Assembly (NCBI RefSeq): GCF_001469875.2
Contig: NZ_LOPW02000018.1
Coordinates: 268,086 to 306,066, forward strand
From: Haloferax marisrubri
GTDB taxonomy: Archaea; Halobacteriota; Halobacteria; Halobacteriales; Haloferacaceae
DNA: 37,981 bases
Direction of reading: 5' to 3'
Part shown: piece by piece, positions 33,904 to 37,075 of the stretch
Layout: every line of letters starts with the position of its first letter
Numbering within the stretch: the first letter of the stretch is position 1
The notes under the pieces: generated by a model
Told to the model about the DNA's origin: nothing
Database searches by the model: none
Seen by the model: only the letters and a program-made list of their open reading frames with translations
Position numbers and translations under genes: made by a program

Positions 33904-34263
33904 ATGTCGAGCGGTACTATCGATATCGACGAGTTCGAAAACGCTGACGCCGACGAATTCGATGAGCGGAACGACACCGAGCGAATCGTGCTGTTCCTCG
34001 ACGAGCACGACGACCGTGCGTGGAAGGCCGCAACGATCGCCGAGCGACTGGGCTTGGACACGGACGCTGTTAGTGCGATTCTCTCTCGACTGAAGGAACG
34101 CGGGCTCGTCCGGCACAAGCGCCCGTACTGGGCGATCACGGACAACAAGGAGCGACTTCAGTCAGCGTACCGGCTTCACCGACACCACGAGAGTGCAGCC
34201 GAACAATACGGCGAAGAGCGTCTCGAGGATCTCCGGACCGACCAGATGGAAGAGGTACAGTGA
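33904..34263 (+). CDS. Winged-helix DNA-binding protein, probable antitoxin
   Basis: A 119-residue MarR-like winged-helix protein: an acidic N-terminus (residues 1-22), then ERIVLFLDEHDDRAWKAATI, ERLGLDTDAVSAILSRLKERGLV as the helix-turn-helix, and a charged C-terminal helix. Its stop overlaps the GTG of a PemK/MazF-type gene by four bases, so it probably acts as the antitoxin and autoregulator. Confidence 0.8.
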   Translation: MSSGTIDIDEFENADADEFDERNDTERIVLFLDEHDDRAWKAATIAERLGLDTDAVSAILSRLKERGLVRHKRPYWAITDNKERLQSAYRLHRHHESAAEQYGEERLEDLRTDQMEEVQ

Positions 34264-34601
34264 CTGCGTTCGAGGATCTGGAACGCGGCGACATCGTCTG
34301 GGGGGCCGATCCGCTCTCGGAGAAAGGTCGTCCGCTGCTCATTATAGGGACTCCTCAATTCCCGAACCATGGCGTGCAGCTCATCACTGTCCTGATCTCC
34401 ACGAAGACGTACCACGAGGAGTCACTCACGCTCCGGGACGACGACTACGCGGGCGACCCACTCGGGGAACGAAGTCACGTGCTCCCGTGGTCGCTTGCGA
34501 CACTCAACAATGCTGCCGACGTCGAGTACTATCTGACCTCGCTCGTTGACGGCCGCACAGAAGATGTAGTGGGCCAGTTGATTGGCTACATCACTGACTG
34601 A
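34260..34601 (+). CDS. PemK/MazF-type toxin
   Basis: A 113-residue protein with the PemK/MazF barrel start (LERGDIVWGADPLSEKGRPLLIIG), a central beta region and SHVLPWSLATL. MazF-type toxins are mRNA endonucleases. GTG start overlaps the upstream winged-helix gene. Family is fairly clear; activity not proven, because haloarchaeal members diverge at the catalytic positions. Confidence 0.78.
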   Translation: MTAFEDLERGDIVWGADPLSEKGRPLLIIGTPQFPNHGVQLITVLISTKTYHEESLTLRDDDYAGDPLGERSHVLPWSLATLNNAADVEYYLTSLVDGRTEDVVGQLIGYITD

Positions 34602-34682
34602 TACCTGCCTTGTCCGGCTCGAGTGAGCCTCACATCGTACACACGAAAACGGCTAAGTTCGTTGGCTCACAATGTACACATC

Positions 34683-34985
34683 ATGAGCACCGAGAAGAAG
34701 CGCGTGCAGTTTCGGGCCCCCAATCGGCTCATCGACCGGGCTGACGCACTGGCCGCAGTCCTCGGCGAAGACCGAACAGACGTTCTCGTGACCGCGCTTC
34801 GGGAGTACCTCCAAGACGCCGCTCACGACGACACGCTCGTCCAGGAAATTGCCGACGCCTATTACGACGATGAGATTACCTTCGAGCAACTCAAAGCACT
34901 CGTCGGCGCCGAAGAGGCGGCCAACCTCCGCGTGTTGAAACAACAGTTGGACGAGGACTTTATCGACGAGGTCGCCGACGTATAG
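34683..34985 (+). CDS. Ribbon-helix-helix-type antitoxin
   Basis: A 100-residue protein starting MSTEKKRVQFRAPNRLIDRAD, with a beta strand and two helices typical of RHH antitoxins, then an acidic helical tail that would wrap the toxin. The ATG at 34683 is chosen over an upstream in-frame start. TGTACACA-like repeats (GTACACA at 34637-34643 and 34674-34680) lie upstream and may be its operator. The stop codon directly abuts the PIN gene. Confidence 0.75.
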   Translation: MSTEKKRVQFRAPNRLIDRADALAAVLGEDRTDVLVTALREYLQDAAHDDTLVQEIADAYYDDEITFEQLKALVGAEEAANLRVLKQQLDEDFIDEVADV

Positions 34986-35498
34986 ATGGCGCGGCTTATC
35001 GCAGATGCCTCCGCCCTCGTCAGTCTCGGAATCGTTACTGACGACGACCCCGATCCACTGGCACTTTGTCTTTCTCGGTACGAGGTCGTCGTCCCAACGG
35101 CGGTCATCGATGAACTCCGCGAGATTGCCTCCTACGATGACGTCCATGGGCACGCTGCGTCCGCCGTCCTCGATCAAACGGTGTCGTTCACGACACAGTC
35201 AGTCGACCTCGATGCCGAGTTTCCGCTCGATGACGGTGAAAACGCGGCGGTCACCCTCGCGAACGAGCTCGATGCTGGGCTCTTCCTCTGTGACGAGTTC
35301 AACCAATTGGGTTTGATTCACGCCTCACTCGCTGATACCCGACTCGTCACGACGCCAACACTGCTCTCGGTTCTCGTTCGAACTGAACACCTCTCAGCTG
35401 CCGAGGCACGGTTGCTCCTCAATAAAATCAGCGACGCCCGTAGCTGGGGGGCGAACAGTTACGTGCAGCGAGCTCGCTCGTTGCTCGAAGGGCCCTAA
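34986..35498 (+). CDS. PIN-domain toxin (VapC-like)
   Basis: A 170-residue PIN-domain nuclease. The acidic residues expected for the metal site are visible: D7 in IADASALV, E in VIDELRE, D/E in LDDGENAAVTLANEL, and D in LFLCDEFNQ. It starts immediately after the antitoxin stop. With the preceding gene it forms a second toxin-antitoxin module, separate from the PemK pair. Confidence 0.82.
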   Translation: MARLIADASALVSLGIVTDDDPDPLALCLSRYEVVVPTAVIDELREIASYDDVHGHAASAVLDQTVSFTTQSVDLDAEFPLDDGENAAVTLANELDAGLFLCDEFNQLGLIHASLADTRLVTTPTLLSVLVRTEHLSAAEARLLLNKISDARSWGANSYVQRARSLLEGP

Positions 35499-35518: not shown

Positions 35519-35526
35519 ACTGAAAT
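35519..35526 (+). repeat. Target-site duplication ACTGAAAT, left copy
   Basis: The octamer ACTGAAAT directly precedes the left inverted end of the element at 35527-37067 and is repeated at 37068-37075. Confidence 0.85.
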
Positions 35527-35542
35527 GGCTCTGTTGAAATCC
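35527..35542 (+). repeat. Left terminal inverted repeat
   Basis: GGCTCTGTTGAAATCC, perfect inverse of 37052-37067. Confidence 0.88.
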
Positions 35543-35722
35543 ACAGTCGCTGATAGGTTGATGAGGCCGTGCTGAATACAGGACGCGAACCGGTCACATC
35601 GGAACTCAACTCTACGCTCCTCAACATTCAAGCGTAGACTTCTATCCGTTTAAATAGATGTTTTGTATATGTGTATTCAGTGGGTAGACTAACCGACAGA
35701 GCACGACTCATCGGATGACTTG

Positions 35723-36547
35723 ATGTATGGCAGAGGTTCTGACAGTGTAGCAACTGTCCTGTTTGTTGTATTTATCAATGTACTTCCAGTCTCTGGCATA
35801 TTCACTTTTTCTTGGAGTCGGAGTGAATTGATGTTCGTATACGTAGTCCAAAACGCGCTGTTCATCGTACTCTACAGCGTCCTTGTTTCATTTGCGACAC
35901 GTGAGCCACAATTAGACGAGAATAGCCCACGAGCGGTGCCAATCCCATTCATATCCAACCGTTCTGGATGGACACAGATAACCGAATGGTTGCCACCAGT
36001 CAGCTATTGGAATCTCCAATTTATCATCTGGCCTCTCGTATTTGGCTTGATATTCTGGTCAGTTGTGGGAATTCTGTTTGTCGATATGGCAGATCTCAAT
36101 TTTACAATTGAAGGGGGGCCTGATACTCCTGCTGGCGACTACATCGCAGTCGTCACAGCTGCCGCCTCTGTTGAGGCGATTATGATTGCAGTGCTGATCG
36201 TCGGGATGATGTGTGCCCTCGTTTCCCGCAAGTTTCTCGGTCAGGAACAGTACAAACACTTCTCAGCACCCGAACTGGCCGAAATCCCGATTCGGGTTGG
36301 ACTGTACTGGTTTGTTAGTCTAATTTTTGTACATCTCGTCGTCATCCTCAGTTACCCGCTCATATCCATTATTGGGCTACCAGACTACATGAAGTTCAGA
36401 GTGGTCGGGATATTTTTGATACTAAAAACTCTGGCCGACTTGTCTGTTCTAAATATATTGGAAGGCGGCGAACCTGAAAAAAAAATTGTTTACTGGTTCA
36501 CATTCTTCTGGTCGGGGTCATGGACAGATGGCGATTCACAGGCCTGA
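35723..36547 (+). CDS. Polytopic membrane protein (DUF6498-like)
   Basis: A 274-residue protein with about six hydrophobic helices (for example VATVLFVVFINVLPVSGIFT and ELMFVYVVQNALFIVLY). The start, N-V-L-P-x-x-G followed by FSWS and ELM--Y-xQN, resembles the haloarchaeal DUF6498 family (from memory; those have LPLxGV, W and a YWxEN-like motif). Function unknown. Codon use and GC content are clearly unlike neighbouring genes, consistent with cargo of a mobile element. ATG 35723 is preferred over TTG 35720. Confidence 0.65.
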   Translation: MYGRGSDSVATVLFVVFINVLPVSGIFTFSWSRSELMFVYVVQNALFIVLYSVLVSFATREPQLDENSPRAVPIPFISNRSGWTQITEWLPPVSYWNLQFIIWPLVFGLIFWSVVGILFVDMADLNFTIEGGPDTPAGDYIAVVTAAASVEAIMIAVLIVGMMCALVSRKFLGQEQYKHFSAPELAEIPIRVGLYWFVSLIFVHLVVILSYPLISIIGLPDYMKFRVVGIFLILKTLADLSVLNILEGGEPEKKIVYWFTFFWSGSWTDGDSQA

Positions 36548-36750
36548 TTTTTGGCTTGACTGGTCGAAATTCGTGAAGACGCGAGGAACACAGAACGGAG
36601 GTTAATGTCTATTGGACGATCATTCTGATAGAGTCTGAGTAGGAGTCGAAGACGTTGCTATACAGAGGTCGCATGTCGGTTGTGGGTCCAGCACCCTATT
36701 CCTGGACTGTTCGTGGAGAGCGAATCGAGTCGGGGCGAATCTGCGGTACC

Positions 36751-36963
36751 TTAGTTCCGTTCTCGGTCCACGTATAGGCGGGTGAGCCCGCATTCAGGAC
36801 AAACGTGTGCGGTCGGTGTAAGCTTCTTTTTCGCGCCAAGTCTCCCGAATATGCTCGGTTTGGGCTCGTCTGTATCGACGTGAATCTTGAACCCGTCTGT
36901 CGTCCGTATTTCGAGTTCTTCCAACTCTACTCCACAGTCGGGGCACCGCTTCGGCGAGACCAT
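36751..36963 (-). CDS. Small zinc-ribbon protein
   Basis: A 70-residue protein with two zinc knuckles, CPDCG near the N-terminus and CPECG near the C-terminus, separated by a strand-rich region (IRTTDGFKIHVDTDE). It is carried inside the transposase-less element, convergent with the membrane-protein gene across a 200-base spacer without evident genes. Function unknown; a nucleic-acid or membrane-partner role is only conjecture. Confidence 0.7.
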   Translation of the reverse strand: MVSPKRCPDCGVELEELEIRTTDGFKIHVDTDEPKPSIFGRLGAKKKLTPTAHVCPECGLTRLYVDRERN

Positions 36964-37051
36964 CAGTACAGAGTGATGGTCTGTTCAGCCTCATAACATC
37001 ACTGCTGCATACACGCTCTGACTGTGTCACACGGGTTCTATCAGGTTCTAA

Positions 37052-37067
37052 GGATTTCAACAGAGCC
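37052..37067 (-). repeat. Right terminal inverted repeat
   Basis: GGATTTCAACAGAGCC on the plus strand, the exact complement of the left end of the element. Confidence 0.88.
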
Positions 37068-37075
37068 ACTGAAAT
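37068..37075 (+). repeat. Target-site duplication ACTGAAAT, right copy
   Basis: Second copy of the octamer at 35519-35526, directly following the right inverted end. Confidence 0.85.

Follow-up and report, generated by a model that had tools for sequence, protein, structure and literature searches.

An IS5-type non-autonomous element of Haloferax marisrubri as a probable copy of a haloarchaeal gene-cassette exchange platform

The window, namely the whole stretch of 37,981 nucleotides analysed here, sits on a 559-kb contig of a Haloferax genome (Haloferax marisrubri) and contains, at coordinates 35527-37067, a unit of 1541 bp. This unit terminates in GGCTCTGTTGAAATCC on both strands, with an inverted match of 16/16, and is flanked by exact 8-bp copies of ACTGAAAT at 35519-35526 and 37068-37075. 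Inspection of ORFs and Pfam matches found no transposase among the coding ORFs of the unit, and the preliminary description of a transposase-less element with intact ends and an 8-bp duplication is confirmed on each of these points. In particular, the following features can be distinguished:

35519..35526, no strand: left copy of the target duplication, ACTGAAAT, 8 bp; an empty relative site in the same genome has a single CTGAAAT.
35527..35545, plus strand: left IS5-type terminal inverted repeat; its first 16 bp equal those of the right one, and the ends are as on autonomous IS5-family elements.
35546..35596, plus strand: left arm, LE model positions 20-70; common to cassette elements, absent from autonomous IS.
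35720..36547, plus strand: cassette 1, a DUF6498-family membrane protein of 275 aa (Pfam E 1.1e-6, above the cut-off).
36602..36681, plus strand: degenerate internal cassette junction, J model positions 17-91 (nhmmer E 2.7e-4, 16.2 bits).
36751..36963, minus strand: cassette 2, a zinc-ribbon protein of 70 aa, with relatives alone in L020 and L042.
37003..37044, minus strand: right arm, matching RE model positions 24-65.
37045..37067, minus strand: right IS5-type terminal inverted repeat, an inverted match to the left end.
37068..37075, no strand: right copy of the target duplication, ACTGAAAT, 8 bp, an exact match to the left copy.

The start of cassette 1, called as TTG, is uncertain. As for the internal junction, the best other non-end J match within the window scores 4.9 bits, against 16.2 at 36602-36681. 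Directly upstream of the unit, at window positions 33904-35498, lies a run of small genes for winged-helix, PemK/MazF-like, ribbon-helix-helix-like and PIN-like proteins, which resemble toxin-antitoxin pairs.

On contig C16 of the same genome, a stretch 90% identical to the target runs across the insertion point without interruption and with a single CTGAAAT, as expected of a true insertion at the window site. This second copy of the flanking region, without the element, corresponds to L270 (G000:C16:150700-151900). Moreover, the LE and RE models match 331 times in 15 congeneric genomes, with 6-35 matches per genome. The unit is thus not a chance arrangement, since an element-free relative exists and the same ends recur many times.

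A search of the genus with the end sequence retrieves units of many sizes, including IS5 elements, MITEs and passenger-only units. Some of these encode a 273-aa IS5-family transposase, which scores 216 bits with NF033579 against a cut-off of 140 and also matches PF01609. For example, L082 is an autonomous IS5-family element of 1195 bp with the duplication ATTTAATT, and L079 is an IS5-family element of 1393 bp with an added 122-aa gene. The autonomous partner that the preliminary description proposed to look for by end sequence is at hand: congeners contain intact IS5-family elements that share the 16-18 bp ends and likewise have 8-bp duplications. In the Haloferax marisrubri genome, matches to the transposase family are only weak, the best having an E of 2.4e-23. 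These elements presumably belong to the ISH1-like subgroup of haloarchaeal IS5-family IS, with its 8-bp target duplication. They resemble the cassette elements in the terminal 16-18 bp and in the length of the duplication; they differ in that the arms and the junction are absent from autonomous IS, whereas the cassette elements carry no transposase. Specifically, the conserved ends of the passenger-only class extend over about 70 bp on the left and about 65 bp on the right, of which the autonomous IS shares the outer 16-18 bp only. The IS6 family was considered as a partner and rejected, as the IS6 elements of the genus (L048-L053 and others) end in GGCACTGTCTAGTTA, measure about 745 bp and are unrelated.

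Passengers beside the transposase are observed in L077 (1852-3236), L079 (1258-2650) and L081 (1437-3109), and comprise membrane-like proteins of 116 and 122 aa and an HD-domain-like protein beside a split transposase. In addition, a 125-bp MITE family with the same terminal repeats occurs in L078, L088, L092, L093, L094 and L095, most copies having 8-bp duplications; the interiors of these MITEs are unrelated to the cassette arms.

These relatives invite the reading that the window unit is an ordinary passenger-only IS, i.e. a mobile insertion cassette or MITE, in which each unit is moved whole by a trans-acting transposase and differences at the same site reflect independent insertions into a preferred target. 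The autonomous IS5 relatives with the same ends and duplication length, the 125-bp MITEs with target duplications and the IS copies with added passenger genes would all fit such a reading. The comparison of shared sites tells against it. Three congeneric genomes (G001, G004 and G014) have at the window locus flanks that are 93-98% identical, and the ends and duplication of the window unit recur there, a single point change in one duplication copy of G001 being the exception; the interior, of 466-467 bp, is unrelated to that of the window unit. The earlier proposal that the whole 1541-bp unit transposed finds no support in these three genomes; the occurrence of the same locus, ends and duplication with another interior indicates instead that the platform is old and that its cargo was exchanged in place. 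Other shared sites behave likewise: among the 18 sites common to at least two of 15 Haloferax genomes, the cassette next to the end differs at 15, as obtained by comparing the end flanks of sampled copies, with a manual count of the listed clusters in which both ends were taken together. On contig C3 of G000, one site has at least five different interiors among six genomes, and another two genomes have continuous flanks and no element there. Element orientation is kept at shared sites, and the coincidence of both base and orientation makes independent insertions a poor explanation: the passenger-only reading would need the same base and the same orientation at 15 of the 18 shared sites, with target duplications that have no obvious common motif.

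Many units contain several genes in a row. When left and right ends were mapped by profile HMMs in about 120 regions of 15 genomes, such units proved to be arrays in which the genes are separated by a dyad junction of about 93 nt without terminal repeats, formed where an inner right end meets an inner left end. The junction model, J, derived from these sequences, detects 39 full-length junctions in the same Haloferax regions and has matches in 132 of the 293 genomes of the order. Arrays reach about 19 junctions in 19.9 kb in G067, where further arrays lie on both sides, and a Haloprofundus halobius plasmid has an array of about ten. Junction matches are present in 31 plasmid records, and in annotated plasmids they are intergenic in nearly all cases. 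A left end and a junction lie on pHME132 of Haloferax mediterranei (L283, 4426-5088), and matching left ends on Halobacterium salinarum plasmids. Another DUF6498 gene is located about 1.3 kb downstream of the pHME132 junction. As to a viral vehicle, phage records and IMG/VR gave no matches. For a passenger-only IS, the junctions of about 93 bp without terminal repeats, the sharing of cassettes between array positions and the arms longer than IS ends would all go unexplained, and we regard that reading as quite improbable.

The degenerate junction at 36602-36681, placed between the two genes, indicates that the window unit is itself a two-cassette array. The suggestion that the two cargo genes may form a functional unit was not supported: they have opposite orientations, a degenerate junction stands between them and their relatives are found apart. 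Relatives of the DUF6498 gene occur without the zinc ribbon in L019 and L021; a zinc-ribbon relative stands alone in L020, adjoining a left-end match, and in L042, within a 448-bp element with an exact target duplication. As judged from these sequence comparisons, the DUF6498 gene and the zinc-ribbon gene make up two distinct cassettes and not a proven functional unit.

In the sampled loci, 250 distinct cassettes fall into 192 non-homologous clusters, with a median interior of 589 bp; these and the other counts cover sampled regions rather than whole genomes. The cassettes have mostly a single main ORF, whose orientation relative to the array is even (82:78). Their products are diverse and include methyltransferases, GNAT and SnoaL proteins, a histidine kinase, transporters, lipoproteins, toxin-antitoxin pairs and many unknowns. 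A cargo devoted to defence was considered and set aside, as PADLOC gave few matches among 102 cassette proteins. Cassettes are shared between sites. The 36 homologous cassette pairs all have the same orientation relative to the sites, and most have different neighbours; L101 and L163, for instance, share their first cassette, and the second one of L101 recurs as the sole cassette of L138. VapBC-like toxin-antitoxin cassettes are nearly identical in different arrays of two species (L130, 1990-2690, and L145/L013, on G000 C3).

Homologous pairs of this kind make it possible to locate the points of exchange. Homologous cassette pairs with differing outside context were compared with non-homologous pairs in model coordinates, since indels distorted both ungapped and simple pairwise profiles. 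On the right side, identity is above background over J1-12 (0.99 vs 0.85, and 0.84 vs 0.62) and at background over J18-42 (for J18-24, 0.50 vs a background of 0.56), and the cassette interiors of the compared pairs are 94% identical. On the left side, J85-93 is above background and moves with the cassette, and J66-84 does not move with it, J78-84 being at background. This identity pattern, set against that of the core, places the breakpoints in short windows around CCTCTG and its inverse. Between the two breakpoint windows a junction core of about 59 bp stays behind and is internally linked. Sites without a cassette have also been observed, in L189 (Hfx profundi), L245 (Haloferax marisrubri) and L232: they contain one TGCTGAAYWCA, whereas a filled site has two. 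An armless, "empty" platform of the TIR-TIR type was found in none of 392 genomes.

Two further observations concern the ends of the cassettes. A modest excess of identity at J58-65 on the left side is unexplained by the breakpoint model. Base-pair covariation linking both ends of a cassette was considered and abandoned, as the motif association became weak once homologous cassettes were collapsed.

The breakpoints bear directly on the possibility that homologous recombination alone swaps the cassettes through the conserved arms and junctions, aided by promiscuous haloarchaeal mating and with no dedicated enzyme. Arms and junctions do offer 40-93 bp of conserved sequence, recombination is reported to be frequent in Halobacteria (PMC3990103), and repeat-mediated deletion is known (PMC3119063). 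However, general recombination would be expected to place crossovers across the whole junction, whereas from J18 onwards on the right side copies of the same cassette are no more alike than background, next to an interior that is 94% identical, and the arms are clearly different between donors and recipients. General homologous recombination is thus disfavoured as the route of cassette exchange, and we consider it unlikely.

The tandem organisation of mostly single-gene, functionally diverse cassettes, between which lies a conserved dyad site whose length hardly varies, and the shuffling between arrays recall integrons and, in particular, a CALIN, i.e. an attC cluster without integrase. A divergent integron with sites too divergent for recognition would account for the arrayed single-gene cassettes and the constant junction length, and 75 archaeal MAGs from nine phyla are reported to contain integrons (PMC9668308). 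On the other hand, none of 117 genomes reaches the curated cut-off for IntI (TIGR02249), with generic tyrosine-recombinase matches only. The junction alignment has no attC-like hairpin or covarying pairs, RNAalifold on 19 junctions giving four pairs, none of them compensatory. The junction does not move with its cassette, its core being stationary; genes occur equally in both orientations; and the outer ends are here IS5-type terminal repeats with 8-bp duplications. Integron membership fails because integrase, folded attC and site co-movement all tested negative, and even a divergent integron appears very improbable. The idea that J acts as a folded RNA or single-stranded DNA site was likewise dropped, since neither RNAalifold nor Rfam supported it, the latter with no family over threshold in three loci.

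Other known systems share part of the picture. The cassette elements have the ends of an autonomous IS, itself present in congeners, with passengers between them, a target duplication and no transposase, as do mobile insertion cassettes and other transposase-less IS derivatives. They differ from the latter in a conserved region extending about 50 bp beyond the IS ends, in the multi-cassette arrays and in the replacement of cargo at fixed sites. In the minimal mobile elements of Neisseria, different genes are exchanged in place between the same conserved flanks, as here; those exchanges use homologous recombination in flanking housekeeping genes, not a repeated junction as in the present case. 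A haloarchaeal parallel comes from Haloquadratum walsbyi, where 64 cases of deletion-coupled insertions place unrelated DNA at the exact same chromosomal position in related strains, with no mechanism given (PMC3119063). Unlike the platforms described here, no conserved bounding sequence is reported there (PMC3119063). The preliminary description considered passenger-only elements little known in archaea; such units turn out to be abundant across haloarchaea, and a search of the open-licence literature found no paper on them or on haloarchaeal cassette arrays. The cassette platform, widespread in haloarchaea, is apparently undescribed, with an integron-like organisation and without recognisable integron parts.

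Taken together, the window unit is probably one copy of a haloarchaeal platform for gene-cassette exchange, carried within a non-autonomous element of IS5 type. The outer frame, with terminal repeats of 16-23 bp and an 8-bp target duplication, is this element, which most likely owes its insertion to an IS5-family transposase supplied in trans. The frame contains one or more cassettes, each bounded by a conserved dyad arm; in arrays, the junction of about 93 bp between neighbouring cassettes consists of a right arm fused to a left arm. In this reading, cassettes enter, leave and replace one another at a fixed location; the breaks fall at the arms' inner edges, near CCTCTG and its inverse, and neither the frame nor the cores of the junctions nor the chromosomal site moves during exchange. 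The genome comparisons directly show the frame, the arrays, exchange at fixed sites, cassettes common to several sites, the breakpoint windows and the cassette-less sites. The cutting at the arm edges may be operated by a dedicated trans-acting site-specific recombinase, and the moving form may be a circular or linear cassette. More broadly, and with confidence about evenly balanced, we propose that haloarchaea might possess their own site-specific system of cassette capture and exchange, unrelated to integrons, in which single genes, without the core, are moved between IS5-type platforms genome-wide by a putative recombinase cutting at short inverted motifs that border the junction.

Several findings weigh against the platform reading. 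No recombinase is linked to the arrays, the sole integrase near one array being without homologue at the other loci. The excess at J58-65 on the left side implies that some exchanges may use other points, and the internal junction of the window unit is degenerate. Deletion between short direct repeats, which has been described in haloarchaea (PMC3119063), is another way in which sites without a cassette could arise. The evidence throughout is a comparison of static genomes.

Haloarchaea are characterized by rapid gene turnover. A platform with recognisable junctions offers a concrete and searchable substrate for this turnover; it allows predictions of the genes that can be exchanged and provides markers with which to look for a recombinase. 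If such a recombinase were found, the platform would join integrons as the second gene-cassette system of natural origin, one that works at high salt and occurs in laboratory species such as Haloferax mediterranei.
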